Below, one piece after another: positions 42,446-60,606 of a DNA stretch of 64,000 nt. How positions within the stretch are numbered: position 1 is the first letter of the stretch; the number at the start of each line of letters is the position of its first letter. A program made the position numbers and the translations under genes. Under the pieces are notes generated by a model. The model did no database searches, was not told the origin of the DNA, and saw only the letters and a program-made list of their open reading frames with translations. The DNA comes from Lentisphaerae bacterium GWF2_49_21 (GTDB lineage: Bacteria > Verrucomicrobiota > Lentisphaeria > Victivallales > GWF2-50-93): positions 1-64,000 of the forward strand of contig MHBH01000036.1 of the NCBI GenBank assembly GCA_001804805.1. The letters run 5' to 3'.

Positions 42446-42483
42446 AATTCGTTAGTAGTTAATGCCGTAAGGCATGTTCTTGT
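42446..42483 (+). repeat. GTAGTTAA hairpin repeat, copy A
   Basis: TTCGTTAGTAGTTA-ATGCC-GTAA-GGCAT-GTTCTTG. Confidence 0.8.
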
Positions 42484-42548
42484 ATTTTGGATAATAAGAA
42501 CGTGGTACAGGCGTCCCGCCTGTAATTATTCTTCCATTAAGAGACAAG

Positions 42549-43577
42549 CTATTTTGTCTTGACCCCGGTCGCCTTTGCCACTGCAGCGTAATTGGTGGTC
42601 GTCGGCTTTAGCGGTAGCTCAATCGTCTGACGCTTCAATGCCGACTCATACCAGGCAAAAATCACTTCAGTGGTACGCAAGGCGCGCCTGACAGATATCT
42701 CTGGTTCCTTGCCTTTGCCCAGTCCATCCGTGATGTCCTTTATCATTGCCTGCATGTTCTCGTTCTTTGCATCGTGGAGGCTTCCCTTCACCTTCACCAC
42801 CTGCCATGTTGACTTGCCCTTACCCTTGATGCGCAGATGTGGTTCCGCCTCCAGAATCTCAATGTCGCCTTTCGTTCCGTGCAGGCGGAATCCAAGGTTC
42901 ATTTCCTTCTGGTCGCCGGATTGGATCACCGCTGTCACTCCATTTGCAAAGGTAAGCCAGCCGATCGCCAGCTGTTCGAACGGAATTCCAAACCACGAAC
43001 CGCCTTCCCGGGCATCGATCTGACCCAGGATGCGTGTCGCCGGCACCTCACCGTTCAGCTTGAAGGTCATATCGACCACATGCGTCCCCCAGTCGAGGAT
43101 GTTCTTCGGATTAAAGGCCTCGATGCGCAGAAGCTTGCCGATTCCGCCTTTTTTCACCAGTTCGCGGGCCTTCCGGAAGACAGGAAGCTTCCGGCGCTGA
43201 TGATTGAATGTGAGCTGGCTCCCGGCCTTTTCTGCGGCCTTGGCCATCGACAGTGCGTCCTTCCAGCATGGCGCCATCGGTTTCTCGCAATGGATCGCAC
43301 GGACTTTCGCCTTGGCGCAATATTTTACGACTTTCTCATGGAGTCCCGTCCAGAGGCAGATACTGACAATGTCCGGCTTGATCTTGCGGAGCATCTTTTT
43401 GTAGTCGGTGAAAGTTTCCGCATTGGTGAACCCGTGCTTCTCGGAAAATGCCTTGATGGCTTCTGCCTTGACATCAGTTAACGCGACAACATTGCACTGT
43501 TTATTCAGCTTATATCCTTCCGCATGAATACTGGCAATTCGCCCGCACCCTATGAACGCAACACGATATATTTTCAT
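42549..43577 (-). CDS. Gfo/Idh/MocA family oxidoreductase
   Basis: YRVAFIGCGRIASIHAEGY, CEKPMAPCWKDALSMAKAAEK. Confidence 0.9.
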   Translation of the reverse strand: MKIYRVAFIGCGRIASIHAEGYKLNKQCNVVALTDVKAEAIKAFSEKHGFTNAETFTDYKKMLRKIKPDIVSICLWTGLHEKVVKYCAKAKVRAIHCEKPMAPCWKDALSMAKAAEKAGSQLTFNHQRRKLPVFRKARELVKKGGIGKLLRIEAFNPKNILDWGTHVVDMTFKLNGEVPATRILGQIDAREGGSWFGIPFEQLAIGWLTFANGVTAVIQSGDQKEMNLGFRLHGTKGDIEILEAEPHLRIKGKGKSTWQVVKVKGSLHDAKNENMQAMIKDITDGLGKGKEPEISVRRALRTTEVIFAWYESALKRQTIELPLKPTTTNYAAVAKATGVKTK

Positions 43578-43624
43578 GGAAATCCTTCAAGTAAACCATT
43601 ATATTAAGTCACGGCCAAAAGTCA

Positions 43625-43710
43625 AGAACATGCCTTGCGGCATTGACTACAAACGAATTGCAAATACAATTAGGAATTTGTTCGTAGTTAAGCTCGCAAG
43701 AGCTGTTCTT
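43625..43710. repeat. GTAGTTAA hairpin repeat, inverted pair B1/B2
   Basis: AGAAC-ATGCC-TTGC-GGCAT-TGACTACAAACGAATT .. AATTTGTTCGTAGTTA-AGCTC-GCAA-GAGCT-GTTCTT. Confidence 0.88.
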
Positions 43711-43729
43711 TTCTTTTATGAATTACTAC

Positions 43730-44527
43730 TTACTTTACCGACCCCTTGCCAAGCTTGTTGGCGACAAGATAGCGGTAGCTCGCTTCCACGGCTTCCACGC
43801 GATCGCCCTCGCAGCGGTCGATCTCAACGACCAGCCACTTCAGCACCTTTGGATCCGCTGCGGCAATAGCACCCTTGACGTTGACTTTTCCAGCTCCAAC
43901 AGCCGACATAGGTCCGCCGAAAGGCTGGTCCTTCGGACGTTCCATCATGCCGTCCTTGATGTGCAGGACCGGTACCCGTGCGCGGAAATTCTTCACCTGT
44001 TCCGCGGCGTCGTTCGCCATGAAGTTTGTGGCCCAATAGATGTCGATTTCGAATTTCACGTCCGGACACATTTCCGCGATGTATTCCTGGGCAATTTTCC
44101 CGTTGATGCGGTCGAACTCCCAGAAGTGGTTGTGCAGGCAGAGCTGGAGATTGTGCGGCTTGAGGGCGGCGGTCATGCGATTGATCAGTTCAGCCGTCTT
44201 GCGGATGGAATCCATGGTCTTGAACTCGTCCCAGCCAAATCCTCCGAAGAGGTGCTTGAACCCGAAGATCTTCTTGAGCTTGGCGATCTCCTCGATGTTC
44301 GAGAGATCGTGCTTCGGCCCTGGACCTGTGACCATCTCCAGCCCGAGTTGATCTAGTAGTTCCTTGTACTGTTCAGCAGTCATTCCGTATTTGATTGCCT
44401 CGCCGAGACCGCCTTCCACGCCGACAAATCCGATTTCGGAGACTCGTTTCATCGTGGACATAAAGCTTTCCTTGGATTCGCCAAGAAGTTCTCTGACCGT
44501 GTACAGTTGCAGACCGATAGGCTTCAT
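43730..44527 (-). CDS. Sugar phosphate isomerase/epimerase (AP-endonuclease-2-like TIM barrel)
   Basis: PIGLQLYTVRELL, LCLHNHFWEFD, VLHIKDGM; ATG at 44527. Confidence 0.88.
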   Translation of the reverse strand: MKPIGLQLYTVRELLGESKESFMSTMKRVSEIGFVGVEGGLGEAIKYGMTAEQYKELLDQLGLEMVTGPGPKHDLSNIEEIAKLKKIFGFKHLFGGFGWDEFKTMDSIRKTAELINRMTAALKPHNLQLCLHNHFWEFDRINGKIAQEYIAEMCPDVKFEIDIYWATNFMANDAAEQVKNFRARVPVLHIKDGMMERPKDQPFGGPMSAVGAGKVNVKGAIAAADPKVLKWLVVEIDRCEGDRVEAVEASYRYLVANKLGKGSVK

Positions 44528-44565
44528 CTTGAATTTCTCCTTTATATTAAGGTAAAAATAAAATA

Positions 44566-44640
44566 ATGGACGCGGCAAGCGCGTCCCTCCATAGCTCCGC
44601 CGTCTTAAGGCCTATATACGCCATAAGGCGTGGAGGGACG
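44566..44640. repeat. GGACGCG-GCAAG-CGCGTCCCTCCA .. ACGCC-ATAA-GGCG-TGGAGGGACG composite inverted repeat
   Basis: CGTCCCTCCA and TGGAGGGACG are perfect 10-bp inverted repeats; related unit at 59947-59971. Confidence 0.8.
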
Positions 44641-44698
44641 AGTTTACCGAGTCCGCACTATGAACAAGTTTTGATATCAATTGTTCTCCTTCATTGTT

Positions 44699-46219
44699 TT
44701 ACAGTGATGCCTGTTCTGCGGTTTTCAGCGCATCGAAAAGTTCTGAAGATGTTTTTGCGTTTATGAGGCGGTCAGCCAGGAATTCGCTGTCGAGCATCTG
44801 TGCGATATGCGAGAGCAAGGCCTGATGGATCCTTGGAGTGTCCGCAGGCGTAAGAAGTATGAAAAGAAGGTCGATGGTTTCATTTGGGACAGGTGAGGGG
44901 ATTGGCTTTTTCAGTCGTGCCACTACGACCACGGAACGCGCCAGGCTTTTGAGACGGGCGTGGGGAATTGCAATATTCTTGCCGACATAGCTGCTCATGA
45001 TCTTTTCACGCTCGGACACTGAAAGCATGATTGTCTCTACGGGCATGGGGAGATCGCTTGGATTGATGCGTTTCAATGCATTTTCCGCAACACTGGTTAT
45101 CGAACTGCCCTCGACATCGAGAAGAACCCTGTCGGTGGTCAGCCTTTCTGAAAGATAAACCGGCACCTCCAGCGGGAATTCCTCCTCGATGGCGCCGACA
45201 ACTTCCTCGAGCAGATCCTCCATCGTCACAAAACCTGTCCAAGCTCCTTTGCTGTCGTAGACAAGGGCGACATGGTTGCCGCGCCGCTGCATTTCAGACA
45301 GGAGATGTTCGATGCTTTCATCCTCCTTGGCCTTGAGACAGGGGCGTATGAAGAACTGCAGTTCCATCGTCGGTTTGCTGGATATCGAAGCGAGATAAAG
45401 ATCCTTTAGGTGCACATACCCGAGAGGTGTTTCCGGATCATTGCCGATAAGGGGATAGCGCGACTGCTTGAATTCGGAAATGATCTTGTTGTTCTCCTCA
45501 GGTGTTGCACCGGTCTTAAGTATGTGCAGCCTGTCGCGGGAACGCATGGAGTTCCTGACCGTCAGAGTGCCCATGTCAAGTACGTTCTCGATATAGAGGA
45601 GGCGGCGGAAGGTCATCATGCCGCTGGCCTGCGAGTTGTCGAGTATGATCCTTATCTCATCCTCGGAATGTCTTTCGTGCTTTGGAGCCTTGGGAACTCC
45701 TAGTAAATATAGAATGGAATCGACAGACCAGTTCAGGAGCCACAATGGTATATAGAACACGAAATAGCAGAAATGCAGGGGGAATGCGGTATTCAGCGCA
45801 GCCTGTTCGACCTTGCGGATGGCGAAAATCTTAGGGACCTGCTCCCCTAGCACTATATGGAGATAGGAGATGAGGATGTAGGAAACTGAAATGGCAATAC
45901 CATGGATTGTCGCATCGGCAGTGCCGTTTCCATATCCTGTCTTTAGCAGTAGATAGGCAATAATTTTTGCAAATCCGGGTTCGCCGACAAAGCCCAGTCC
46001 GATACTTGCCAGCGTTATTCCGACCTGGCAGACCGAAAGGTACTGGTCCAGCTTGGTCTGGATGTGCTGCATCATCTTTGCCCTGATGTCACCCTTGGCG
46101 GCAAGAACCTCCATATGGGTGGGGCGCGCCTTCACCGCCGCGAACTCCGCAAGCACGAAGAACGCGTTCAGCAGGAGCAGCAGGAGTGTCAGGAGCAGAT
46201 ATGTTATTATCAAGGTCAT
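44699..46219 (-). CDS. CNNM/HlyC-type (DUF21) membrane protein with CBS pair and C-terminal PTS EIIA type-2-like domain
   Basis: DUF21: NAFFVLAEFAAVKAR, QVGITLASIGLGFVGEP. CBS region: FKQSRYPLIG..GYVHLKDL. C-term: REKIMSSYVGKNIAIPHAR..LLFILLTPADTPRIHQALLSHIAQML. Confidence 0.85.
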   Translation of the reverse strand: MTLIITYLLLTLLLLLLNAFFVLAEFAAVKARPTHMEVLAAKGDIRAKMMQHIQTKLDQYLSVCQVGITLASIGLGFVGEPGFAKIIAYLLLKTGYGNGTADATIHGIAISVSYILISYLHIVLGEQVPKIFAIRKVEQAALNTAFPLHFCYFVFYIPLWLLNWSVDSILYLLGVPKAPKHERHSEDEIRIILDNSQASGMMTFRRLLYIENVLDMGTLTVRNSMRSRDRLHILKTGATPEENNKIISEFKQSRYPLIGNDPETPLGYVHLKDLYLASISSKPTMELQFFIRPCLKAKEDESIEHLLSEMQRRGNHVALVYDSKGAWTGFVTMEDLLEEVVGAIEEEFPLEVPVYLSERLTTDRVLLDVEGSSITSVAENALKRINPSDLPMPVETIMLSVSEREKIMSSYVGKNIAIPHARLKSLARSVVVVARLKKPIPSPVPNETIDLLFILLTPADTPRIHQALLSHIAQMLDSEFLADRLINAKTSSELFDALKTAEQASL

Positions 46220-46339
46220 TTATGAATTTGAATCATTTTGGAAAATACTTCTTCCTGTGATAACAATAATGAAAAACCATATATAAGTCAAGGGAACTGG
46301 TCTCTTTTCCACCCATATGAGTTCCCCCCTTTAATCTTT

Positions 46340-46435
46340 ATAAAGAATCTCCAGCCCGACGAAGGGCAAGGGATTCCGTCAATAATACCCCGTTTCTATC
46401 AATTGGGATTGGATGGACTCCTAGAGATTCTTTAT
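46340..46435. repeat. Element with 12-bp terminal inverted repeats ATAAAGAATCTC/GAGATTCTTTAT
   Basis: Arms 46340-46351 and 46424-46435; the left end matches the 6087 palindrome at 18/21 positions. Confidence 0.75.
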
Positions 46436-47862
46436 TGCTGGAATGCATTCTCTATTTTTTCGAGCTTCATCCCCCGGGAACCTTTGAGGAAGATCATGTC
46501 GCCACGTTTGATCTTCATCCTCACATATTTTGCAGCCTCATCCGAATCAGGAAAATCGCGCATGGAAATGTCAGGTCTTGATCTTATGTTCTTTGCGGCT
46601 CCGCCCATGAGAGGGCCGACTACGATTAAGATGGATTTCGGTATGAGCCTGGTAGTGAACTCCAATATCTCATCATGGGCCCGGGGGCCGGCTTCGCCCA
46701 TTTCAAGCATGTCGCCGAGGATGACAAAGATCCTGGAGGTTCTTCCTGGATCCTTCGAGGTTGCTTCGCTGAGCCACTCGATTCCGGCCCTCATGCTGTC
46801 CGGATTTGCGTTGTAGGCGTCGTTAATCCAGGTTATCCCGTCGCGTTCCTGTATCCGCATCCTCATGCCGGGGATCTGCACTCCCATGTTCAACGCCTCC
46901 ACTGCAATTTCCGGCGATGCGCCCATGGCATTGGCTGCAAGCACGGCTGCTCCAGCGTTCATTGCCTGATGCCTGCCTGGCAGATGCCAGTTGACAGTTT
47001 TACGAAGTCCGCAATTCTTCCAGTGAAGCTCGAAACTGCTTCCAGTCATGCTTCCCCCGAGATATTTCACCTGCAGATCTGCGGATCTCGCAGATTCCCC
47101 GCCGAAACGCAAAGCCTTGAATGGTTTTACGGATTTGTCGAGTATCTTTACTCCCGGACCTTCCGCGGGTATGATCGCAGTTCCAGCTGGCGACATTTTT
47201 GCGAATATCGCAGATTTTTCCCTGGCCACGCCGTCTGTGTCGCCAAAGAATTCGATATGCGCTTTCCCTATGGATACGATCAGGCCGTAATCAGGTTCAG
47301 CGAGCAGGCTCAGGGCCTCGATTTCACCAGGATGGTTCGTGCCCATCTCAATAATGGCATATTCATGGTTCTTCCTGAGATTCAGGAGATTTTGTGGGAC
47401 ACCGACATGGTTGTTGGTGTTTCCTTCAGTCGCATATATTTTGTCTGCCCCATATGCATGGACAAGTATTGCCTTGAGGATCTCCTTCGTGCCTGTCTTT
47501 CCGCTGCTGCCGGTCAGGGCTATGACCTTTGTCCCTATTCTTTTCCTGTGGAACTTGGCAAGAGACTGATATGCCTTCAACGTGTCGTCGACGATCAGGA
47601 TAGGTATATCCTTTGGGAGTTTTGTTTTTGGGAGCCGATCTTTGGAGACGCATATTGCAGAGGTGTTTTTTGACGCCGCGGCTTCAAGATAGTCATGTCC
47701 ATCGAAATTATCCCCCTTGAGCGCGAAGAAGATGGAATTCAGACAGTCCTTCCGAGTGTCAGTCGAGACAAATTGCATACCCGGGCCCGAAGGTTTCGGA
47801 CCTGTCAATTTTCCAGAAGTGATTTTCTCAAGTTCGCTATATGTGAATAGAATATTATCCAT
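46432..47862 (-). CDS. murF: UDP-N-acetylmuramoyl-tripeptide--D-alanyl-D-alanine ligase
   Basis: ALTGSSGKTGTKEILKAIL, NNHVGVPQNLLNL, INDAYNANPDSMRAGIEWL. Confidence 0.95.
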   Translation of the reverse strand: MDNILFTYSELEKITSGKLTGPKPSGPGMQFVSTDTRKDCLNSIFFALKGDNFDGHDYLEAAASKNTSAICVSKDRLPKTKLPKDIPILIVDDTLKAYQSLAKFHRKRIGTKVIALTGSSGKTGTKEILKAILVHAYGADKIYATEGNTNNHVGVPQNLLNLRKNHEYAIIEMGTNHPGEIEALSLLAEPDYGLIVSIGKAHIEFFGDTDGVAREKSAIFAKMSPAGTAIIPAEGPGVKILDKSVKPFKALRFGGESARSADLQVKYLGGSMTGSSFELHWKNCGLRKTVNWHLPGRHQAMNAGAAVLAANAMGASPEIAVEALNMGVQIPGMRMRIQERDGITWINDAYNANPDSMRAGIEWLSEATSKDPGRTSRIFVILGDMLEMGEAGPRAHDEILEFTTRLIPKSILIVVGPLMGGAAKNIRSRPDISMRDFPDSDEAAKYVRMKIKRGDMIFLKGSRGMKLEKIENAFQQ

Positions 47863-47908
47863 AAGTAATAAGTATCATAAGATTAATCAGGCAAAGGATA
47901 ATTTCAAG

Positions 47909-49381
47909 CTAAATGGAGCCTATAAGCTTCCTGACTTCCTCGCGGTCGTCGAAATGGTGTTTGACGCCTTTTATCTCCTGGTAATCCTCATGGCCTTTGC
48001 CGGCTATGAGGACGATATCGCCCGGTTCGGCCTCATTGAGAGCCTTTTCAATCGCCTCACCTCTGTCCGGAACTGTTGCGAAGTTCGCAGTTGAGGGGAT
48101 GCCCTTGACGATTTCCGCTATGATTTCTTTCGGATCTTCCGACCTCGGATTGTCGCTGGTCACGATCGTCCTGTCTGCGAATTTAGCAGAAACTGCACCC
48201 ATCCTGGGGCGTTTGGTCCTGTCCCTGTCGCCTCCGCATCCGAACACGCAGATGATCCTTTTCTTCTTGAGCTTCGTCAGCGCTTCCAGAACTCTCCTCA
48301 GCGCATCGTCCGAATGGGCGTAATCGACAAAGATGCTGACATTGTCCTTAAAGTGGAAAGCCTCAAGACGACCCGGTATTGCTATGGATTTTTCCAGAGT
48401 TGACTGGATTATTTCAGGACTGATTCCGAGTTTGTAGGCGATGATCGCGACACCGCAAATATTGTAGGCATTGTGCTCGCCGATGAGAGGGGAGGATATT
48501 TTAAAAGTCCTGCCTTCGATGGAGAGCGTGAAATCCGTGCCCAGCTGGGATATGCTGTTGATTTTAATGACCGCATCGCAGTTTTCCCTGCCGAACCTTA
48601 TGCAGTTGGCGCTCCTGAGATCCGCGAAAAGCCGCTTGCCAAATGGATCGTCGGTATTGATGGCGGCGACGGCATCTACTGCAAGATGGTCCTGGAAGAG
48701 TATTTTCTTTGCATCATAGTAGAATTCCATCGTCTTGTGGTAGTCGAGATGGTCTCCGGTGAGGTTTGTGAAGATGGCTCCCGCGAACTTCGCAGAACCG
48801 ATCCTGTTCTGATGCAAAGCATGGCTTGAAACCTCCATTATGACATGGGTGCAGCCGGCTTCATACATTTTGGAGAAATGAGACTGGATCTCTGAAGCTT
48901 CCGGCGTTGTCCTGGCGGCTGGCTCGGAATGCCCGGGCCATTCATAGCAGACGGTTGTTATGATCCCGCATTTCAAACCTGCGGACGTGAGGATGGAGTT
49001 GAGGAGATATACGCTGCTCGTCTTGCCGTTTGTCCCGGTGACTCCGAGTATTTTCATCTTGCTCGACGGGAAGTCGTAGAAGCATTCGACAAGCCGTGCA
49101 TAAGCGGAATATGAGTCTGAAACCTTTATATAGCTTATGCCGTTCTTGAAGGATGAAATATCCCTGGCATGGATCACCGCCTTTGCTCCGGAGGCGATGG
49201 CGGAGTCTATGAAGTCATGTCCGTCCTTTCCGCTTCCCTGGATCGCGATGAAGACTGATGAAGGAGCCACGCTCCTGGAATCGTTGGTGACCGAACTTAC
49301 GATGAAATCTCCGGCGGGCCTGCTGGCCACAACAAGTTCATCGAGGAAGTCGATATATTCCGAAAAATTCTTCTCGATCAT
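47909..49381 (-). CDS. murE: UDP-N-acetylmuramoyl-tripeptide synthetase
   Basis: GVTGTNGKTSSVYLL, MEVSSHALHQNRI, VDYAHSDDALRRVLEAL, GKGHEDYQEI. Confidence 0.96.
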   Translation of the reverse strand: MIEKNFSEYIDFLDELVVASRPAGDFIVSSVTNDSRSVAPSSVFIAIQGSGKDGHDFIDSAIASGAKAVIHARDISSFKNGISYIKVSDSYSAYARLVECFYDFPSSKMKILGVTGTNGKTSSVYLLNSILTSAGLKCGIITTVCYEWPGHSEPAARTTPEASEIQSHFSKMYEAGCTHVIMEVSSHALHQNRIGSAKFAGAIFTNLTGDHLDYHKTMEFYYDAKKILFQDHLAVDAVAAINTDDPFGKRLFADLRSANCIRFGRENCDAVIKINSISQLGTDFTLSIEGRTFKISSPLIGEHNAYNICGVAIIAYKLGISPEIIQSTLEKSIAIPGRLEAFHFKDNVSIFVDYAHSDDALRRVLEALTKLKKKRIICVFGCGGDRDRTKRPRMGAVSAKFADRTIVTSDNPRSEDPKEIIAEIVKGIPSTANFATVPDRGEAIEKALNEAEPGDIVLIAGKGHEDYQEIKGVKHHFDDREEVRKLIGSI

Positions 49382-51171
49382 AGGTCGTCCTCCTCTTCCT
49401 CCTCGGGAATTTCATACTGCGGCGGAATATTCATGAAACGGAGGGCTTTCTTGGCTATATGGCTGAAGGCTGGAGCCGCGACAAGCCCACCATAATAGAC
49501 CGGCCTGGGATTGTCAAGAGTGACCAGAAGGACGAAGGCGGGCTTGTCGGCAGGTACGAATCCGATGAATGACGAGAAGTATTCCGAATTGGAGTAAACT
49601 TTCTTGCCATTTTCGTTAATGATAAGTTTCTGGGCAGTTCCCGTCTTGCCGGCGACATCATATCCTTTGACCGCGGCCTTTTCAGCGGTGCCACCCTTCT
49701 GCGTGACGAGCTTGAGCATGTTGACTATTCTCTTGTGTGTCTGGGGATTTTTGAAAATACTACCTGATCCGGATACAATCTCCATTTTTATTTCCTCGCC
49801 TGTGGCCGGATTCTGATGGCGGTCGATCAGGCGGAGCTCTACGAGTTTTCCGCCGTTTGCGAGCGCACAGTAGGCCCGGGTCATCTGCAGGGGGCTTACA
49901 GTGAATGTCTGTCCGATGGGATATCTTGAAACTGTCAGCCCGTCCCACTGGTCGGGTTTGAGTATTACACCTAAGGCTTCCGGTTTTAGAGGGATTCCAG
50001 TCTTCTGACCGAACCCGAAACTCCGTATGGTCTCATATTCCTTGTACTTCCCCATCATGACGCCGATCTTCGCAGTGCCGATATTGCTGGATTTCCGGAT
50101 GATCTCCCAGACGGGTATGACGCCATACCCGTGTCCGGCGGCTTCGCCAAGGATTTTTCCGCAGAACAGCCAGTGCCCGTTCTCGCAGTCGATCCGGGTG
50201 TCGGGTGTCACAATTCCCATGTCCAGGGCGGCGGCGACAATTGTGGATTTCATTATGGAACCCGGCTCAAACGTATCTTCGGTGATCCTGTTCCTCCATG
50301 CCTTGGGATCCATGTTTGTCCTGTCGTTTGGATCAAAGGAAGGCCTTTGCGCCATGGCCAGGATATTTCCAGTATAGGGATCGACCATGACGGCATAAGC
50401 TGCGTCGGGATTGAATTTCTTCATGATGATTTCAAGCTCGTCCTCGACGATCATCTGTACCGGCTCGGATATCGTGAGATAGATGTTGTTTCCGTCCTGT
50501 ACGGCCTTCATCTTGTCCTCCTCACCCTGGAGCCGGAACCCCTTCCTGCTCCGTTCTATTACGGAAACGCTCTCCGTAGGCGTCATGTTGGTGTTGACGA
50601 CTTTTTCGATACCTCCTTCGGGTACTACCTTGTTGCCGTCGACATTGATGAAGCCGAGTATGTTTGCGAGGAGCTTGTTCTTCGGATAGGAACGCTTTGT
50701 CTTGTTTTCAAAGACAAGGCATTTGTACTTTTTGATCTTGGCTTCCTTCCTGATCTTTTCAGCGACTTCCAGATCAACGCTTCTTTTAATGATCACATAT
50801 TTTATCGGCTTGCCTGATTCAGAAAGCTTGATGGAAAGACGCCTGTATATGGAGTCATAGTCGATTCCGAGGATTTTCTGGAAATATTCGGCGAGTTCAC
50901 GGCATTTTGAACTGTCCTTGATCTCGGAAGGATCGGCGGCTATGTCCACGCATGGCTTGTTGCCGACGAGGAGATTGCCGTTAATGTCGAATATCTCGCC
51001 CCTTTTACCTTCTCTTTTGACAGTAGTAGTATAGGTGTCCTTTGCCTTGTCGAAGAGTTCCTCGTGCCGGGTGATCTGGACATGGTATATCCTGAGGATC
51101 AGCGCTATGAGGATGAACAGGAAGATTGCTGAAGCTATTATTATCCTCGCGACGAAATACTTGCGGCCCAT
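49378..51171 (-). CDS. ftsI: Penicillin-binding protein 2/FtsI-type transpeptidase
   Basis: FEPGSIMKS (SxxK), SSNIG (SxN), VAGKTGTAQK (KTG); dcw position; ATGA overlap with murE. Confidence 0.93.
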   Translation of the reverse strand: MGRKYFVARIIIASAIFLFILIALILRIYHVQITRHEELFDKAKDTYTTTVKREGKRGEIFDINGNLLVGNKPCVDIAADPSEIKDSSKCRELAEYFQKILGIDYDSIYRRLSIKLSESGKPIKYVIIKRSVDLEVAEKIRKEAKIKKYKCLVFENKTKRSYPKNKLLANILGFINVDGNKVVPEGGIEKVVNTNMTPTESVSVIERSRKGFRLQGEEDKMKAVQDGNNIYLTISEPVQMIVEDELEIIMKKFNPDAAYAVMVDPYTGNILAMAQRPSFDPNDRTNMDPKAWRNRITEDTFEPGSIMKSTIVAAALDMGIVTPDTRIDCENGHWLFCGKILGEAAGHGYGVIPVWEIIRKSSNIGTAKIGVMMGKYKEYETIRSFGFGQKTGIPLKPEALGVILKPDQWDGLTVSRYPIGQTFTVSPLQMTRAYCALANGGKLVELRLIDRHQNPATGEEIKMEIVSGSGSIFKNPQTHKRIVNMLKLVTQKGGTAEKAAVKGYDVAGKTGTAQKLIINENGKKVYSNSEYFSSFIGFVPADKPAFVLLVTLDNPRPVYYGGLVAAPAFSHIAKKALRFMNIPPQYEIPEEEEEDDL

Positions 51172-51206
51172 CTGCTGTTTTTCCCTGTAATCTCAGCCAT
51201 TATTAT

Positions 51207-51248
51207 ATGAAATATTCACTGAATACTGCAATTCAGTGAATATTTCAT
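51207..51248. repeat. Perfect 18-bp hairpin between ftsL and ftsI
   Basis: ATGAAATATTCACTGAAT-ACTGCA-ATTCAGTGAATATTTCAT. Confidence 0.95.
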
Positions 51249-51721
51249 TAGCGGTAATATTTTGACGAAGCATCGTTCTTCGCCCCGTTCCTCTGGGTCA
51301 CCATTATAGGCTTTGTGTTCGCCGGCTGCTTTACGGGGGGCTCCGCCTTGACGACATTTTTCCCCTTGAATTCTAACTTCTTGATCTGTCCCGGCTGGGG
51401 ATAATGCAGGTCAAGATTGTACCTCTTCACCTGGGCAAGGATATTCTTTCCGCTCTCCTGTTCGATCATTATATTGAGATTTGCAGTTTCACGTTCAATA
51501 TCCATGATCCTGTTTTCCAGGGAGATGGATGCCTTGTTCAGTGATTCCGCCTGGCTTGTCCACATTACCCTTGTGATTGCCGCTGCGAAAAAAATGCAGA
51601 AGGGTATCGAGAGCTTCAGGGTTGTCGCGAAAATCTTCAATCTGTTCGTTTCTGAAGTCCTGGCCTTCCTTTTCCTCGGGCCGCTGTAATTATAACTTGT
51701 TACGTTGATTGCCATTTCCAT
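51248..51721 (-). CDS. FtsL-like small bitopic protein
   Basis: Position between rsmH and ftsI; single TM, coiled-coil-like segment (ASISLENRIMDIERETANLNIMIEQESG). Confidence 0.65.
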   Translation of the reverse strand: MEMAINVTSYNYSGPRKRKARTSETNRLKIFATTLKLSIPFCIFFAAAITRVMWTSQAESLNKASISLENRIMDIERETANLNIMIEQESGKNILAQVKRYNLDLHYPQPGQIKKLEFKGKNVVKAEPPVKQPANTKPIMVTQRNGAKNDASSKYYR

Positions 51722-51827
51722 TAAATCCTTAAATTTTCCATCGATAAGATAGTGTTAAGTTTCAAGTTTTAGGGTTTAGACAGGAATTCATATACTGACA
51801 CCTAAAACGGATTACTCCCTTCCCTAA

Positions 51828-52787
51828 TTATAACTTCTCCGCCACTCTCAACTTTGCCGGTGCCGCCCTGCGGTTCGTCCTTCTCTCCTCTTCTGATGCG
51901 ACAACCGGCTTTCTTGTTATCAGTTTTAAGCTCTGTCTGTGTCCGCATATACAAACCGGGAGGCCGGGCGGACACAGACAGTAGCGAGCCATCATGCTGA
52001 AATACTGTTTTACGATCCTGTCTTCGAGCGAATGGAAGCTTATCACAGCCATCCTTCCTCCCGGAGCCAGCAATTTCACTCCTTCTTCAAGTGCCTTCTT
52101 CAATTCCTCGAGTTCCCTGTTCACCTCTATCCTCAGAGCCTGGAAGCACAATGACGGAGCAGGGGGGCCATGTCTTCTTACAATCCCCGGGATCGAGTCG
52201 CACAGTTCTGCAAGTTCCGCCGTATACATCCATTCCTTCTGCTTCCTTCTCCTTATTATCTCGTCCGCGAGCGTCCTGCTCTTGCGGATTTCCCCGTATT
52301 CCCTGAAGATCCTTTCAAGATCCTCATACGGATAAGTATTTAGAATGCGGCTGGCGGTTTCCCGGGACTGGACATCCATTCGCATGTCCAACGGACCGTC
52401 CAGCCTGTATGAAAACCCCCTCCTCGGGTCGTCAATTTGGGGAGATGAAACTCCCAAATCCAGCAGTATGGCGTCAACCGAGTGCCACCCCAGTCCGGCC
52501 GCGCATGCCGCGAGATTGCTGAAACTGTCCTTTGCCAGATGAACGCGATTCCCGGCGAAGCTTAAAATCTTTTCCGCTGCCGCCAATGCCTCGCCATCAC
52601 GGTCAATGCCCAGCAAAACCGCCTCCACATTTTTTTTCATTATCAAGGAACTGTGTCCGCCGTAACCGACTGTCCCGTCGATCACCTTCACCGGACCCGT
52701 CTTCACCACCAGCAGGTCTTCAACCTCCCGCGGAAGAACCGGAACATGTCCAAACTTCTGATTTTCCTGTATGTCATTTTCATTCAA
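51828..52787 (-). CDS. rsmH: 16S rRNA (cytosine-1402-N4)-methyltransferase
   Basis: GHVPVLPREV, DGTVGYGGHS, LDLGVSSPQIDDPRRGFSYRLDGPLDMRMD, ISFHSLEDRIVKQYF. TTG start probable. Confidence 0.95.
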   Translation of the reverse strand: MNENDIQENQKFGHVPVLPREVEDLLVVKTGPVKVIDGTVGYGGHSSLIMKKNVEAVLLGIDRDGEALAAAEKILSFAGNRVHLAKDSFSNLAACAAGLGWHSVDAILLDLGVSSPQIDDPRRGFSYRLDGPLDMRMDVQSRETASRILNTYPYEDLERIFREYGEIRKSRTLADEIIRRRKQKEWMYTAELAELCDSIPGIVRRHGPPAPSLCFQALRIEVNRELEELKKALEEGVKLLAPGGRMAVISFHSLEDRIVKQYFSMMARYCLCPPGLPVCICGHRQSLKLITRKPVVASEEERRTNRRAAPAKLRVAEKL

Positions 52788-52790
52788 GTT

Positions 52791-53267
52791 CTATTTGAGC
52801 CCCTTTATTATGCTTGTCAGATCATCGGGCTTTTCGCTTATCTTCTGGATCACGTCGAGCACGTCGTTCTGGTCTGATTTCTGGAAGAGGTTCCAGTTGA
52901 CCTTCGACCATATCTGTATGGTTGTCACGGCTCCGACAAGTACCACTTGGTTTTTTAGGCCGGACTGGTCGATGAGCTTCTGGGGGATTGAGATTCTTCC
53001 CTGGCTGTCGCATTCGCACTCCTGCCCCACCGAACCGATACGGACCAGCGCGAGCGCGGAAGCCGCATCCGCGAATGACACCTTGCGGACCTTCGCGATG
53101 AAGTCGTTGAAGATCGCAGGCGGGATCAGCTGGAGCGCATTATGCCTTCCCTGGAGAAGGATGAACTTCGCCTTCTTCTCCTTCCTCCAGTTGCTGGGGA
53201 TCGCGATCCTCCTCTGCGGATCGAGCGAATGCTCGAACTCCCCGAAGAAGAAGTTCTCCTCCTGCAT
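52791..53267 (-). CDS. mraZ: Transcriptional regulator MraZ
   Basis: FFFGEFEHSLDPQRRIAIPSNWR, CDSQGRISIPQKLIDQSGLKNQVVLVG; start of dcw cluster. Confidence 0.92.
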   Translation of the reverse strand: MQEENFFFGEFEHSLDPQRRIAIPSNWRKEKKAKFILLQGRHNALQLIPPAIFNDFIAKVRKVSFADAASALALVRIGSVGQECECDSQGRISIPQKLIDQSGLKNQVVLVGAVTTIQIWSKVNWNLFQKSDQNDVLDVIQKISEKPDDLTSIIKGLK

Positions 53268-53283
53268 GATGCTTTTTGAGCCT

Positions 53284-53323
53284 TGTTTCACCTAAAATCC
53301 CCTTTATTCACCTTTTTTCCCCA
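53284..53323 (-). promoter_or_regulatory. Four 10-bp-spaced GGkGA repeats upstream of mraZ (candidate MraZ boxes)
   Basis: Minus strand TGGGGAAAAA/AGGTGAATAA/AGGGGATTTT/AGGTGAAACA. Confidence 0.75.
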
Positions 53324-53404
53324 AAACAAATTAGTTTTAATTCAGGGCATTTCAAGCGGAAAAAGAAAAAACATTCAAAATATTTTAAGAGGAGGAAGAG
53401 GGAT

Positions 53405-53660
53405 TATCACCACGAAACACACGAAGTACACGAAGGGAATTTTTCCCTGCGAATCACACAGATTGGGAATTCAGATAAAATATTTTCCCGTACAGGGACG
53501 CAAAGACACAAAGAAATGATTTCTCATGCATGTTCCGTATATTCCCTCTGCCAGGCAGAGGAGAGCCGGTTCTCTTTAAAGATTATTATTCAATAACTTT
53601 GTGCCTCTGTGCCTTTGTGCGAGAAAACTCTTGAAAGTCCGTGCAAGTCTGTGGCTAAAT
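53405..53660. repeat. Degenerate CACGAAGnACACGAAG / CTTTGTGCCT repeat cluster
   Basis: CACCACGAAACACACGAAGTACACGAAGGG; AGGGACGCAAAGACACAAAG; CTTTGTGCCTCTGTGCCTTTGTGCGAGA. Confidence 0.75.
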
Positions 53661-53671
53661 TTATATTCGCC

Positions 53672-53822
53672 CATGCCGGAATGCGCCGGGCGTGGCGCCG
53701 TACTGCCTACTGCCTGCGGAATATCCTCGAGAAATAGCATTCGTCGCAGAAAACCATCTAGTCAGCAACCTGTTTGAGGGTCATTTCGCTTGTCATCAGA
53801 AGATTGCATGCCACACTTGAAG
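53672..53822 (-). pseudogene. Decayed C-terminal fragment of an AraC-family gene
   Basis: Reverse strand reads ACNLLMTSEMTLKQVAD*..FCDECYFSRIFRRQ, then a 7-nt tandem duplication (TACTGCC) and YGATPGAFRHG in another frame; aligns with 54555-54696. Confidence 0.88.
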
Positions 53823-53888
53823 AAACTTCAGTGTGATGTATTATTAGTTCATAATGAATCACAAATGCATCAGAAAGGATTATTACTG

Positions 53889-54149
53889 ATGAGCACGTTG
53901 ACCATACATGCCCTTGATTCCGTGACTGAGAAACGGATCCGCGCAAAGGCGCAGAAAGAAAAGAAGAGCCTCAACCGGCTCCTCAAGGAAATGCTTTCGG
54001 GGGCTGTTGGCGTGTCCGGCCCTTCACGCGTTGAAAGCCACCGTGCGGAATTCCAGGAATTTTCCGGAATATGGTCGGACAAGGATCTTAAAGAATTCAA
54101 CCAGGCCATTTCCGATCTTGAACGTGTAGATGAGAAGGACTGGCAATGA
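53889..54149 (+). CDS. VapB/FitA-type antitoxin (RHH-like)
   Basis: LTIHALDSVTEKRIRAKAQKEKKSLNRLLKEML; stop overlaps the downstream PIN gene (ATGA). Confidence 0.75.
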   Translation: MSTLTIHALDSVTEKRIRAKAQKEKKSLNRLLKEMLSGAVGVSGPSRVESHRAEFQEFSGIWSDKDLKEFNQAISDLERVDEKDWQ

Positions 54150-54541
54150 GAGCGGTTATTCTTGACACCAACGCCTTCGCGGCCCTTTTCCGGGGCGATG
54201 AGGATGTTTTGAAAACAATATCAGGGGCGGATCAGGTTTTTGCATCTGTCGTCGTAATAGGTGAACTCGAGGCTGGTTTCCGCGGTGGGGTGCATTATGC
54301 GAAAAACATTGAAATACTTGACAGGTTTCTCGCCAGACCTTCTGTCGAAACACTGGAGGTCACCCGTGAAACTGGCAATTGCTTTGGCCTGATCAAGGAT
54401 GCTTTGCGCCGGAAAGGAACGCCCATTCCAGTCAATGACGTATGGATTGCCGCCCAGGCTGTCGAGAGAGGCGCCGTTGTTGTCACCTATGACAAGCACT
54501 TTGCAAATATTGACGGACTGCGCATGTGGCATCTTGCGTAG
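54146..54541 (+). CDS. PIN-domain VapC-type ribonuclease toxin
   Basis: VILDTNAFAALFRGDE, VVIGELEAGF, PIPVNDVWIAAQAV, VVTYDKHFANIDGLRMW. Confidence 0.9.
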   Translation: MRAVILDTNAFAALFRGDEDVLKTISGADQVFASVVVIGELEAGFRGGVHYAKNIEILDRFLARPSVETLEVTRETGNCFGLIKDALRRKGTPIPVNDVWIAAQAVERGAVVVTYDKHFANIDGLRMWHLA

Positions 54542-54543
54542 CA

Positions 54544-55290
54544 TCAACTCCTTCCATGCCTGAATGCGCCGGGGGTGGTGCCGTACTGCTTTCGGAACAT
54601 CCTCGAAAAATAATATTCGTCGCAGAATCCCGTCTCTTCCGCAACCTGCTTGAGAGTCATTTCCGTCGTCGTCAGGAGATTGCATGCTGCTTCAAGACGT
54701 ATGAGGAGAAGATCCTGCATCGGTGTGAGCCCTGTACATTTTTTGTAGCTCCTGATGAAATGGTATTTGCTCATCCCTGCACGTTTCGCAAGGAAGCCGA
54801 TGGAATGGCTTTTCGTCAATGTCCCCATCATGTGGTCGCGGATGTGCGATAATGGTGAGATTTGTTGCGCCTCGGAAAGCTTTTCCATTTCAATGATGAC
54901 CGCATCGACATATGCGCGGATTATCCTGTCACGCTTCTCAAAAGGTTTTTCCCTCTCCTCGGAAATCCAGTATGCAAGGGTCAGAAGCCGTCTGCCCGGA
55001 TCCTTGACAAGCGGTTTGCAGGAGAATCTTTGCGATGCCGGAACATTGAAGAAAAGAAAATCCGCACCTTCTGGAGACGCCTCCTCTAGATGAGGAACTC
55101 CAGGTGCATAGAAGAGGGCATCTCCCTTTCCGGCTTCAACGGTCTCCCCGCCGACCTGCACGCGGAGACGTCCGCCCAGCATGAGCATTACCTCCACATG
55201 CCCGTGAGTATGCATGCCGAAGGCGACTTTCCATCCGGAGTTAACTTTCAGCCGGCCGACGAAAACTTGTTGAAGCGTTGAGCTGCTCAT
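54544..55290 (-). CDS. AraC-family regulator with cupin-like N-terminus
   Basis: HTHGHVEVMLMLGGRLRVQVGG; IGFLAKRAGMSKYHFIRSYKKCTG..EETGFCDEYYFSRMFRKQYGTTPGAFR. Confidence 0.92.
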   Translation of the reverse strand: MSSSTLQQVFVGRLKVNSGWKVAFGMHTHGHVEVMLMLGGRLRVQVGGETVEAGKGDALFYAPGVPHLEEASPEGADFLFFNVPASQRFSCKPLVKDPGRRLLTLAYWISEEREKPFEKRDRIIRAYVDAVIIEMEKLSEAQQISPLSHIRDHMMGTLTKSHSIGFLAKRAGMSKYHFIRSYKKCTGLTPMQDLLLIRLEAACNLLTTTEMTLKQVAEETGFCDEYYFSRMFRKQYGTTPGAFRHGRS

Positions 55291-55305
55291 TGTTTCCTCT
55301 TGAGT

Positions 55306-55367
55306 AAGGTGGTTTTAAACCGCCTGATTAATATGGATTGTCGGGCTGAAGCCCAACATGCTTTTTT
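55306..55367 (+). repeat. Two-hairpin repeat, copy I
   Basis: GGTGGTTT-T-AAACCGCC, spacer, GTCGGGCT-GA-AGCCCAAC, ATGCTTTTTT. Confidence 0.85.
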
Positions 55368-55504
55368 GTATAAGCAATATTACACAAAAAAATAGCAATT
55401 CTGTCAATTGCGGAAAAATATATCACAATGTAATATGAAGGGCAAGCAGGAAATAATTATAGCAATAATATGCAATATAATATTATATAGATGGAGCAAA
55501 AAGT

Positions 55505-55579
55505 AAGGCGGTTTTTACTTGTCCTGAGCCTGTCGAAGGAAACCGCCAAATAATTGTCGGATTAAAACCCGACATACTT
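55505..55579 (+). repeat. Two-hairpin repeat, copy II, with a 23-nt insert in the loop of hairpin 1
   Basis: GGCGGTTTTT-[ACTTGTCCTGAGCCTGTCGAAGG]-AAACCGCC, spacer, GTCGGATTAAAACCCGAC, ATACTT. Confidence 0.88.
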
Positions 55580-55597
55580 AAAAGGAGAAGGGAAGAT

Positions 55598-56641
55598 ATG
55601 AGAAATAAATTATCAGTTCCGAAAAGCAGTTTTATCAAGGGGCTTGAATGGCTCGGAGATGGGATCGGGTATCCCGAGAAGGACATCAAAGGCGATACTT
55701 TTCCGATGACCTGGGCGGAGGACGGCGAGATATACACTTCGGCTGGTGATCCTCTATGGGGCGAGACCACCGGCGGACTCGACGTCGAGAAGTTCAGCGG
55801 CAGCCCTGAAGACTACAAGATCACGAAGGTCAATCACATGAACGATTATCTCGGCTGGGGCGGCGACGGACCGAAACCGAGTGGAATGATCTGCGTTGAT
55901 GGCGTTCTTTACTTCGCATTCCAGAACATGCTGAAGGCGAAGAAGGCCCCATATAGCATCCTTTCCCAGCATGGCAGCGACGCGCAGATCGTGTATTCCA
56001 CCAATAAGGGCGGATTCTGGGTGCCGACGCTGAAGAATATTCCTGCGCCGATGTTCTCCGGGCACAAGTTCGGCGGGCCGGCATTCGTCAATTTCGGAAA
56101 GAACAACGAGAATGCCCGGGACAATTTCGTATATGCTGTTTCATCCGACCAGTGGGACAACGGTAGCAATCTCAGGATAGGGCGAGTGCCGGATGACAGT
56201 ATCGTGAAACGCGAAGCTTGGGAATGGATATCGGGGTATGAGATTTCCGGAGAGCCTGTCTGGAACCGTGATCTTGACGAGTCGATCCCGATACTGAGCA
56301 TGCATCGTTGGATCAGCATTCCGGAGATGGTCTATCTTGCGGAAATTAAAAGATATCTGCTTCTGACCTGGCGACTGCACAAGGATTTTTCTGGTAATGA
56401 CGGTACGGATCTGATGATATTCGAATCACTGGAACCCTGGGGACCTTTCTCATTGGTCCATTTCGAGGAATACTGGCAAGGGAAGGCATTCAACCCATAT
56501 TGCCCGCGGATTCCGCTTAAGTGGATGGAATCGGACGGTGTCACAGGCTGGATGCAGTTCTCAGGAAGCTGGTCGCCCGAAGGACAGAAAGCCGGCTACT
56601 ACAGGTCGAACGTCCGGAAGTTCAAGTTGAAGATTAAGTGA
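55598..56641 (+). CDS. Hypothetical beta-propeller-like (possibly DUF4185-like) carbohydrate-active protein
   Basis: GDTFPMTWAEDGEIYTSAGDPLWG..; SMHRWISIPEMVYLAEIKRYLLLTW; neighbours are glycoside hydrolases. Confidence 0.5.
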   Translation: MRNKLSVPKSSFIKGLEWLGDGIGYPEKDIKGDTFPMTWAEDGEIYTSAGDPLWGETTGGLDVEKFSGSPEDYKITKVNHMNDYLGWGGDGPKPSGMICVDGVLYFAFQNMLKAKKAPYSILSQHGSDAQIVYSTNKGGFWVPTLKNIPAPMFSGHKFGGPAFVNFGKNNENARDNFVYAVSSDQWDNGSNLRIGRVPDDSIVKREAWEWISGYEISGEPVWNRDLDESIPILSMHRWISIPEMVYLAEIKRYLLLTWRLHKDFSGNDGTDLMIFESLEPWGPFSLVHFEEYWQGKAFNPYCPRIPLKWMESDGVTGWMQFSGSWSPEGQKAGYYRSNVRKFKLKIK

Positions 56642-56886
56642 TTTTCTAGAATTGGAGATCATGGTTTGCCGGGGTTTGTCGTTGCCAGATGCACGCCATA
56701 TAGTTGTAGCCCTAAGTATATACCAGATAATTATTTTTGTCCCTCCTCGGGCCCAGAGGGGGCCTATGTAATATTCTGAATCTGCTAAAACTGATTGACT
56801 GTATGGAAATTTGAGAATTTGTTGTAGTTTCATGCTATTTGTATGCCGTGGAACAGAAAATAATTGAAATATGAAAGGGAATTTAC

Positions 56887-58446
56887 GTGAAAGTCAGCAG
56901 GTTCTGCATATTTGAGACCGCATTAAAATCCGCAAGGAAACATGTCAACCCCCTCTGGGACTGCCAGGTGGCGGTGGAATTCACAGGTCCGTCAGGAAAG
57001 GCCACCACTATACGGGCCTTCTGGGACGGTTCAAACATATGGCGCGCAAGGTTCAGCCCTGATGAGATAGGAACATGGAAATGGAAGACACGCTGTGTCA
57101 AGGGCGACGATCCTGGGCTTCATCAGAAACAAGGCGAATTCGAATGTGTTGAATATAAAGGGAAAAATCCTGTCTACAAACATGGTCCGCTTGAGCTTTC
57201 GCAAGACAGGAGCCACATCGTCCATTCGGACGGAACGCCGTTCTTCTGGCTTGGCGATACCGCCTGGAACGGCGTCATACGCGGCGGCGACCGCAATTGG
57301 AAGAGATATCTCAGTCTCCGTGCGGAACAGCGTTTCAATATAATACAGTTCGTGTGCTGCCACTGGAGGGGGGATGCGTTTGACGAGGCCGGTGAAAAAG
57401 CCTGCGGCGAGAAGCATCCCATCCACATCAATCCTTCATTCTTCCAGCGATTGGACAAACGTGTCGCGATGATAAACGAAAATGGGATGTATGCCGCGCC
57501 GGTAGTGCTCTGGAGCCTGCTCAAGACCGACGTCGGATACAAGCTTCCCGAAGATGATGCTGCAAAACTTGCTTCGTATATCGTCTCCCGCTATGATGCC
57601 CACCAGCTGGTCTGGTTTCTCGGCGGCGACGGCAAATACCAGGAGATCGGATTTGAAAGATGGAAGAGGATGGGCAGGTCGGTGTTCAGCACAGGACACG
57701 ACCGTCTCGTCACCCTCCATCCATGCGGGCTGAGCTGGATAGGCGAGGAGTTCAGGAAGGAGAAATGGTTTGATATCATAGGTTACCAGTCAGGGCATGG
57801 CGATTATGAGAAGGATTTGAAATGGCTGGTGAAGGGGCCTCCGGCGACCTTCTGGAAAAGAAAACCTCCGCTTCCTGTGATAAATCTCGAGCCTAACTAT
57901 GAGGTGATGCACGGTTACAAGTATGGAACTTTGTTTGAAGACTTCCATGTGAGACGCGCCGCATACTGGAGCCTGCTTGTGAGTCCGACGGCCGGGCTCA
58001 CCTATGGACATGACGCGATCTGGAACTGGAACTTCAAGACCGGCCCGAGCGAAGGGCACGGCAACTGGAACGCCAGGAAAGTCCAACCGTGGCACACCGG
58101 ACTTGAAACGCCCGGGATCAGGAGCATGACGGTCATGAGATCTATTTTCGACCGCATTCCCTGGACGTCCTTGAAACCATGCCAGTCGGTCCTTGCAAGA
58201 CAGCCCGGAGCAAAGAAACCTGAAGCATTTGTAGCCGCCGCCAAGTCAAAAGACGGAACGCTTGTCTTTTATTCCCCGGTTGGAGGAACTGTCAGTCTCA
58301 AGCCGGGCATTACGATCTGCGGACCTATGCGCATTGTGGATCCGAGGACTGGAAAAGTCTTCAAGACATATGAGAAAGCTGGCAGGACTATCAGGTTCCC
58401 CGACGTCCGCGACTGGCTTGCGGTCAGCGGTAAGGGATGGAAGTAA
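56887..58446 (+). CDS. DUF5060/DUF4038-type (apiosidase-like) glycoside hydrolase
   Basis: N-term VAVEFTGPSGKATTIRAFWDGSNIWRARFSPDEIGTWKW; DGTPFFWLGDTAWN; FNIIQF; GYQSGHG. Confidence 0.8.
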   Translation: MKVSRFCIFETALKSARKHVNPLWDCQVAVEFTGPSGKATTIRAFWDGSNIWRARFSPDEIGTWKWKTRCVKGDDPGLHQKQGEFECVEYKGKNPVYKHGPLELSQDRSHIVHSDGTPFFWLGDTAWNGVIRGGDRNWKRYLSLRAEQRFNIIQFVCCHWRGDAFDEAGEKACGEKHPIHINPSFFQRLDKRVAMINENGMYAAPVVLWSLLKTDVGYKLPEDDAAKLASYIVSRYDAHQLVWFLGGDGKYQEIGFERWKRMGRSVFSTGHDRLVTLHPCGLSWIGEEFRKEKWFDIIGYQSGHGDYEKDLKWLVKGPPATFWKRKPPLPVINLEPNYEVMHGYKYGTLFEDFHVRRAAYWSLLVSPTAGLTYGHDAIWNWNFKTGPSEGHGNWNARKVQPWHTGLETPGIRSMTVMRSIFDRIPWTSLKPCQSVLARQPGAKKPEAFVAAAKSKDGTLVFYSPVGGTVSLKPGITICGPMRIVDPRTGKVFKTYEKAGRTIRFPDVRDWLAVSGKGWK

Positions 58447-58525
58447 TATATCACATGCAGGATTTTTGCCTCCTCCAGGGCTGCGTACTGGACAGGTAGG
58501 CGACCAGGGTCGGCGCTCCAATTCT

Positions 58526-59914
58526 TCAGTCGATATTGAGATTCCCGAGGATATGCCAGTTGCCGGCAGTCTCGCCTTCAATACCGAGTCTGATGTCAGG
58601 ATCCTGGCGCTTAGGCTCGGAGAAGAGTCCGATTGCAAGCCGGTAGGAACCGGAAGGTGCTGAGAATTTCAGGGTGGGACTTTCGGAAATCTGTTTGCCG
58701 TCGGGAGCCCACTTTTCTGGATGACAGCCGGCTGCCGGACATTTCGCCACGACCTTGCCATCCTTGTCGACCAGAGCCGCAACTACGGTGCATGGAATGA
58801 AGATGAATGCGAATCCTTTGTTCTCCCATTTGAAGACGGCTTCAAAGCCGGTGCCGGATTTTATATGGCGCGGAATTACGGCTTCATCCAATAGGAAATG
58901 ATATCCCATCATGTTTGTGAGCTTGTCGATGAAGGGGCGTTTCTCCTTGACAAAGAGATCTTTGGTGTCGTATTGGCCGAGGTTCTGATATGTGAAAGCT
59001 CCTCGCACTGTGTCGTCGAGTACCCTGTCCTCCAGCTTATCGCCCCATTCATACTTCTGTCCGGTATTCCTGCTATGCCGCTCATAGTTGGAGTACCATT
59101 CGCCGAATGAGGGAACTTTTCCCTTGCAGCGTATCAGTTCGGAGCCGTTGGAATTGCCAAGGACGCCGTCACGCCTTATCCCGACGCCTTTTTCGATGGC
59201 CCAGTCGTAAACGGGATTGTAGAATGGTTCGCCCCACGGGATCAGGAGGCGGGTCTTCTTGAATGCGTCCAGATGGAGCTGGATGTGTTTCTTGAGGCCG
59301 TCAGGGGAGAGTTTTTCCGAGCCTTTGAGGTGGAGGAGGTGTTGCTCGCCCCATTGACCATAGGAACGGATGTCGATATAGGAGACGCGTGGATCTCCAT
59401 CATAACGTTTGCCCATCGCGACGAGGAAATTACCGAGTTTCTCGAGGAAGATCGGATTGTCCCACTGCTTGAGGGCGACCTGTCCCTTGATTTTCTCACC
59501 GTCATATTCTATCGACGGTACTCCGAGGTCGAACACCCACTTGGGCGTATTATATTTTGAGCTGGTATGGAAGCTTTCGCACATCACTCCGAATCCGAAC
59601 TGTTTCCCGACGGCATCCCATTCTTTCAACGCCTTGTCTATCGGTTCCCAGTTGAACTTGCCTTCTTCAGGTTCCAACTGGCTCCAGGAGAAACGCGTGT
59701 AGGCCGAACTGCATACGTCCAGAGCGTCCTGGCTGTGGCTTTTCGGCGAACCGCCATAGACAACCCATCCCTTGCCCGGATTGACAACTGGATTAGATGA
59801 GGCTTTGAATTGCAGGGTCTGGAGTTCGTCCGCCGCATCTGACCTGGCGCTGCAGAAAAGTCCGAGAAGCGCCATTGCGGAGATCGCGAATATGAACATA
59901 CGTGATTTTATCAT
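58526..59914 (-). CDS. Exported DUF4832-like glycosidase-family protein
   Basis: Signal peptide; NPGKGWVVYGG, YTRFSWSQLEPEEGKFNW, YIDIRSYGQWGEQHLLHL. Confidence 0.7.
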   Translation of the reverse strand: MIKSRMFIFAISAMALLGLFCSARSDAADELQTLQFKASSNPVVNPGKGWVVYGGSPKSHSQDALDVCSSAYTRFSWSQLEPEEGKFNWEPIDKALKEWDAVGKQFGFGVMCESFHTSSKYNTPKWVFDLGVPSIEYDGEKIKGQVALKQWDNPIFLEKLGNFLVAMGKRYDGDPRVSYIDIRSYGQWGEQHLLHLKGSEKLSPDGLKKHIQLHLDAFKKTRLLIPWGEPFYNPVYDWAIEKGVGIRRDGVLGNSNGSELIRCKGKVPSFGEWYSNYERHSRNTGQKYEWGDKLEDRVLDDTVRGAFTYQNLGQYDTKDLFVKEKRPFIDKLTNMMGYHFLLDEAVIPRHIKSGTGFEAVFKWENKGFAFIFIPCTVVAALVDKDGKVVAKCPAAGCHPEKWAPDGKQISESPTLKFSAPSGSYRLAIGLFSEPKRQDPDIRLGIEGETAGNWHILGNLNID

Positions 59915-59946
59915 TTTAACCTTTTTTGATTTTCATAAAGAATAAC

Positions 59947-59971
59947 GGTCGCGGCAAGCGCGCCCCTCCAT
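59947..59971. repeat. GGTCGCG-GCAAG-CGCGCCCCTCCAT hairpin repeat
   Basis: Related to 44568-44592. Confidence 0.75.
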
Positions 59972-59994
59972 GCAAATGAGCGTAACTAACAGTA

Positions 59995-60079
59995 TTATTG
60001 TTCGTAGTTAACGCATTCTTGCGTGTTTTTCTTCTTTTTTTAGACACAGCCAATAATGGCTTGACTACAAACAATTATT
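59995..60079. repeat. GTAGTTAA hairpin repeat, inverted pair C1/C2
   Basis: TTGTTCGTAGTTA-ACGCA-TTCT-TGCGT-GTT .. ACAGCCAATAATGGCTTGACTACAAACAA. Confidence 0.85.
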
Positions 60080-60601: not shown

Positions 60602-60606
60602 AGTAT

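Follow-up and report, generated by a model that had tools for sequence, protein, structure and literature searches.

Two classes of GTAG-tagged REP elements and their RAYT genes in an uncultured genus of Lentisphaerae

Background

REPs are short, non-autonomous elements that occur in pairs, known as REPINs or BIMEs, and are spread by single-strand HUH tyrosine transposases (RAYT, or TnpAREP). The hairpins that we describe here resemble the GTAG-tagged superfamily of REPs (Di Nocera 2013, PMC3733652) in the GTAG tag, the short perfect stem, the small loop, the association with RAYTs, the occurrence of both head-to-head (HH) and tail-to-tail (TT) dimers and the preference for heterodimers. This superfamily includes Opitutus terrae, a member of the PVC group. 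Lentisphaerae go unmentioned in that paper, as they do in the other REP papers that we found. Compared by description with its families, the units here are distinguished by a 5-bp stem placed 3 nt from GTAG and by one strict AGC/AYG heterodimer rule that runs across two classes of opposite topology.

Three other systems should be considered. The REPINs of Pseudomonas fluorescens SBW25 (Bertels and Rainey 2011, PMC3116915) are likewise inverted pairs with a preferred spacing, the pair being the likely replicating unit, and have a RAYT nearby; their sequences are different, and the opposite topologies of classes I and II are a feature of the system described here. REPtron Mb of Marinomonas (Corneloup 2021, PMC8266576) has the same 5-bp perfect stem, a tetraloop and a short gap after GTAG. 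Certain bases of its loop are required, its recognition is loop-specific and cutting occurs at CT. However, its loop is TTTA and its gap 2 nt, while the units here, known from sequence alone, have GNRA or TTNT loops and a gap of 3 nt. Finally, E. coli shares with our system a homologous RAYT (TnpAREP, structure 4er8) and the GTAG tag of its REP/BIMEs, but the stem of E. coli REPs is longer and bulged, whereas the units here are perfect and short. In the REPtrons of E. coli, Stenotrophomonas and Marinomonas (PMC8266576), the RAYT binds a folded single strand and GTAG picks the CT (or CA) cut site. Recognition depends on loop bases or on bulges in the stem, and in E. coli the letters of the upper stem can be swapped.

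Five hairpin units in two classes

The window (the whole stretch of DNA analysed, 64,000 nucleotides) belongs to contig C36 of the 5.9 Mb draft genome of Lentisphaerae bacterium GWF2_49_21, hereafter G000. All genomes compared are draft MAGs, and that of G000 is 95% complete. A preliminary description of the window had reported five hairpins at three loci, and inspection of the sequence found their positions, stems, loops and inverted layouts to be as stated (Table 1). The GTAG tags of B1 and B2, which lie head to head, are 34 bp apart; those of C1 and C2, tail to tail, are separated by 64 bp. The window contains five occurrences of the motif GTAGTYAA, where 1.36 would be expected; none of 100 shuffles reached five. 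A scan of the window with Rfam matched no RNA family.

Table 1. Hairpin units and paired elements in the window
Feature	Position	Strand	Description	Basis
Unit A	42451..42481	+	class I REP singlet; GTTA-GTAG-TTA, stem ATGCC/GGCAT, loop GTAA, tail GTTCTT	sequence, class pattern, census
Unit B1	43624..43654	-	class I REP; AYG-type stem ATGCC/GGCAT, loop GCAA, tail GTTCTT	sequence, pattern, census
B1/B2 spacer	43655..43679	.	between the arms of the head-to-head class I dimer	
Unit B2	43680..43710	+	class I REP; AGC-type stem AGCTC/GAGCT, loop GCAA, tail GTTCTT	sequence, pattern, census
Unit C1	60000..60030	+	class II REP; AYG-type stem ACGCA/TGCGT, loop TTCT	sequence, pattern, census
Unit C2	60042..60072	-	class II REP; AGC-type stem AGCCA/TGGCT, loop TTAT	sequence, pattern, census
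C1/C2 REPIN	60004..60068	.	65-bp tail-to-tail, GTAG ends outward	

Some details of that description need correction. The proposed head, TTCGTAG-TTA, is not invariant; for the family as a whole it is GYTN-GTAG-TYA (it reads GTTAGTAG in unit A, while TTTGTAG and TCA are seen in B1 and C2). The proposed GTT ending does not hold for C2, which ends in GTG. The five copies had also been taken for a single family; they represent instead two related classes, I (A, B1 and B2) and II (C1 and C2). Class I is defined by a GNRA loop and at least seven covarying stems, class II by a loop that is mostly TTNT and by the stems CGCA and GCCA; the head GYTNGTAGTYAA and the tail TGT are common to both. Classes were assigned in a sample consisting of 1.26 Mb of G000 and 1.20 Mb of its sister Lentisphaerae bacterium GWF2_50_93 (G001), in which the loop is GNRA in 108 of 109 class I copies.

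Another dispersed repeat is present in the window at 60605-60672, where two adjacent hairpins, GTCGGGTTTCAACCCGAC and GTCGGTTTAAAAACCGAC, are followed by TTGCTCTTTG. It has 8 matches in the 1.26 Mb of G000 and 27 in the 1.20 Mb of G001, and recalls the CGTC-tagged palindromes of Di Nocera 2013 (PMC3733652). A 16-mer with a palindromic core, TTGCGATCATCGCAAT, occurs 23 times in the 1.26 Mb of G000, both strands counted.

Copy number and host range

A covariance model was made from the five copies; the counting itself was done with sequence patterns, because these gave clean counts when run alongside their reversed controls. Across the whole of G000, the strict pattern for class I matches 203 copies and that for class II 118 (about 320 in total), while the reversed controls match 0 and 0. 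A looser pattern gives 265 matches in the same genome and 15 in its reversed control. The preliminary description had named few or no further copies as the outcome that would speak against it; there are hundreds more in G000.

Among the genomes searched, classes I and II are confined to one genus. Its four members G000, G001, G002 and G003 contain 203, 181, 47 and 46 strict class I copies and 118, 49, 1 and 23 strict class II copies, respectively. Two genomes from sister genera of the same family have no copy matching either strict pattern, and in 37 other relatives, within the family and beyond it, the looser pattern is at background level.

Covariation of the stems

For the analysis of covariation, 168 units (113 from G000 and 55 from G001) were picked on the GTAG head and the tail only, leaving the stems unselected. 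At each of the five positions of the stem, 107-112 of the 113 units from G000 and 53-55 of the 55 from G001 have a Watson-Crick pair, and at four of these positions the pair comes in two or three types. Across the 43 distinct sequences, 95.3% of cells are paired. The covariation score is 0.726 compared to 0.229 +/- 0.027 in shuffles; none of 500 shuffles scored as high, a count that is not a probability since the rows are related copies. Slid structures, a control that retains this relatedness, score at most 0.11. The evidence for covariation in the stems is overwhelming.

G-T pairs are nearly absent among the covarying stems, and the changes are cleanly two-sided. Both properties would also be produced if complementarity were maintained by mutational correction of imperfect palindromes, through template switching in replication, the repeats being decayed REPs. 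Such correction leaves the REP status itself untouched. On its own, however, it does not account for the conserved loop class, the tag, the dimer types or the flanking of RAYT genes by the units, and we regard it as an improbable explanation.

Rules of dimer formation

Dimer and context statistics were obtained from the 2.46 Mb of sampled G000 and G001 DNA. Class I pairs 22-41 bp apart are head to head in 31 of 31 cases, not all of them independent, because several have one spacer in common. Class II pairs 59-65 bp apart are tail to tail in 25 of 25. At wider spacing, 92 and 128 bp, two further class I pairs are arranged tail to tail; in addition, there are a few neighbours of mixed class (I/II). 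Spacers are conserved in HH dimers and variable in TT dimers, in agreement with Di Nocera et al. (PMC3733652).

An AGC-type stem is joined to an AYG-type stem in 30 of the 31 class I HH dimers and, when arms with a single base change are counted, in all 25 class II dimers. Di Nocera et al. (PMC3733652) report the preference for heterodimers as having no obvious explanation and suggest that homodimers would form long hairpins prone to removal. We would like to put forward a different, tentative suggestion, which in our estimation has a lower than even chance of being correct. A REPIN may need two non-equivalent halves, the AGC-type and AYG-type units being the ends (left and right) of one ancestral element that the RAYT would tell apart by the first stem pairs. 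We propose this because the rule holds in both species and in both classes, despite their opposite topology. If correct, it would provide a functional reason for the heterodimer preference that is unexplained in the literature.

RAYT genes and the units around them

There are 20 matches to Y1 transposases in G000. One of them, on contig C7 (G000:C7), is a RAYT of 203 aa; a class II REP pair lies on either side of the gene at a distance of 14 bp, in both cases with the AGC-type arm innermost. Of 608-bp segments drawn at random, 0.03% are flanked left and right by units no more than 100 bp away. Its ortholog at the orthologous locus of GWF2_50_93 (G001, contig C12) is 75% identical and has class II flanks too. 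A second GWF2_50_93 RAYT, G001:C56, is 50% identical and has class I units on both sides. So a RAYT gene flanked by the hairpin units, which had been proposed as something to look for, exists for both classes, the link for class I being one flanked RAYT in the sister genome. RAYTs of class II and class IV (described below) score 83.4 bits against the NCBIfam equivalog model NF047646, 'REP-associated tyrosine transposase', above its cut-off of 80; the class I RAYT scores 66.2 bits, below it. The G000:C7 protein also matches the structure of E. coli TnpAREP (PDB 4er8; phmmer E = 1.2e-7). Copy number, the flanked RAYTs, the NF047646 scores above cut-off and the match to 4er8 support the REP/RAYT interpretation originally offered for the five hairpins. 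We are highly confident that the five belong to two REP classes spread by RAYT/TnpAREP in an uncultured genus of the Lentisphaerae.

No RAYT with class I flanks was found in G000, where class I is the commoner class. Therefore class I is an orphan there, is served in trans, or has its RAYT in an unassembled part of the genome. If the class II (or class IV) RAYT spread class I in trans, this would agree with the head and tail that classes I and II have in common, and with the 203 class I copies and lineage-specific loci of a genome that lacks a detected class I-flanked RAYT. On the other hand, class I has its own flanked RAYT in G001, and one may simply be missing from a MAG of the completeness of G000. 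In G002, with 47 class I copies, neither a class I nor a class II RAYT was found, which loss would fit equally. Spread in trans is thus a possible, though rather doubtful, source of the class I copies in G000.

Further REP-RAYT pairs are present. Three RAYTs, L065 (G000:C32:7968-8555), L167 and L168, carry a REP of their own, GTAGTAGCGCATGTTTGCGCGTTCTT, in their flanks and constitute class IV. GGAG-tagged palindromes (GTTGGAGTTCACAGCTTTAGCGTG; GTTGGAGTACAAGCTTTAGCTTG) flank the RAYTs L066, L067, L165 and L166. Class IV and GGAG pairs co-occur in G000. In a tree of RAYTs, the GTAG-type and GGAG-type proteins occupy separate well-supported parts, so that tag type follows the tree. Among 16-mer families in the sampled DNA, GTTGGAGTTCACAGCT is the most frequent, with 38 occurrences.

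Three additional observations concern transposase genes. A Y1 gene at 150537-150800 of G000:C77 (L042) is flanked by two copies of GTAGCC-ACGCCA-CTCTGT-TGGCGT that are direct, not inverted; this layout is more like that of an IS200/IS605 element. At G000:C76:60159-60993, two matches to Y1 transposases have the same score and are separated by 589 bp, which may reflect a tandem duplication. The contig L061, which bears the title Victivallis vadensis MAG MiH-14oct19-33, encodes a RAYT identical to that of G002:C90, and its species label may be inexact.

Genomic location

Of the loci that were placed, about 90% fall outside ORF-based gene calls, in DNA that makes up 12% of the total. Divergent intergenic regions are under-represented (11 of 94 loci versus 25%). 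Convergent gene ends hold 15 of 31 class II loci, an enrichment over the 23% of random intergenic points that fall there. This enrichment, as well as the GNRA loop and the T-rich tails, which are features of RNA, might suggest that the hairpins are intrinsic transcription terminators or mRNA-stabilising hairpins kept for an RNA function. However, class I singlets have no preferred direction relative to transcription (9 same, 10 opposite). Nor would one expect from terminators the GTAG tag, a fixed dimer geometry, the RAYT association, restriction to a genus, turnover, or stems that covary almost without G-T pairs. The extragenic location, the small number of divergent sites and the unbiased singlets therefore argue against a primary terminator role; the singlet direction led us to reject it, and we consider an RNA function as the reason for these hairpins to be very improbable. 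Some copies could still have a secondary role in RNA.

Comparison of sister species

In G001 the same genes are present, but the orthologous gap between them lacks the dimer B1/B2 altogether. Element C is kept at its orthologous G001 locus, with one arm decayed from CGCA to CTCA. Altogether, the two species have three class II loci in common (element C and two more), while five class I loci (element B and four comparable ones) are absent from the other species. Since class II loci are shared and class I loci are missing across species, these few loci suggest that class II copies are older and that class I turnover is more recent. Insertion junctions were compared at the eight G000 and six G001 loci with orthologs, where intergenic flanks have about 80% identity and are mostly too diverged; only C32:2704 comes near a clean filled/empty pair. 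At one locus, no alignable intergenic sequence was found in G002 or G003.

Possible mechanism

By analogy with characterised REPtrons, the following can be suggested for the RAYT-spread REPs described here. A single-stranded unit would fold into the 5-bp hairpin with its tetraloop, the GTAG tag standing in front. The RAYT would read the tag, the pairedness of the stem and particular bases of the loop, not the letters of the stem, and would cut at a CT dinucleotide beside the hairpin. We propose that stems covary freely, with head, loop class and tail fixed, because the RAYT would ignore the stem letters. The copied unit is probably the dimer. Cutting, movement as a single strand and the dimer as the mobile unit are what we infer. 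In class I, 74 of the 101 units with an AGC- or AYG-type stem have a CT at one fixed position on the 3' side; among class II arms, CT occurs within 8 nt in 25 of 33 CGCA arms but in only 6 of 28 GCCA arms. These positions fit the mechanism known from other REPtrons.

Implications

These are new REP classes, with RAYTs, from Lentisphaerae; the system is of a known kind, and its strict heterodimer rule is notable. The finding places complete REP-RAYT systems in this group, with several classes coexisting in one genome. With head, loop and tail fixed and the stem occurring in many natural variants, these units form a ready test set for how a RAYT reads a hairpin, and the strict heterodimer rule bears on the question of why REP pairs usually consist of unlike halves.
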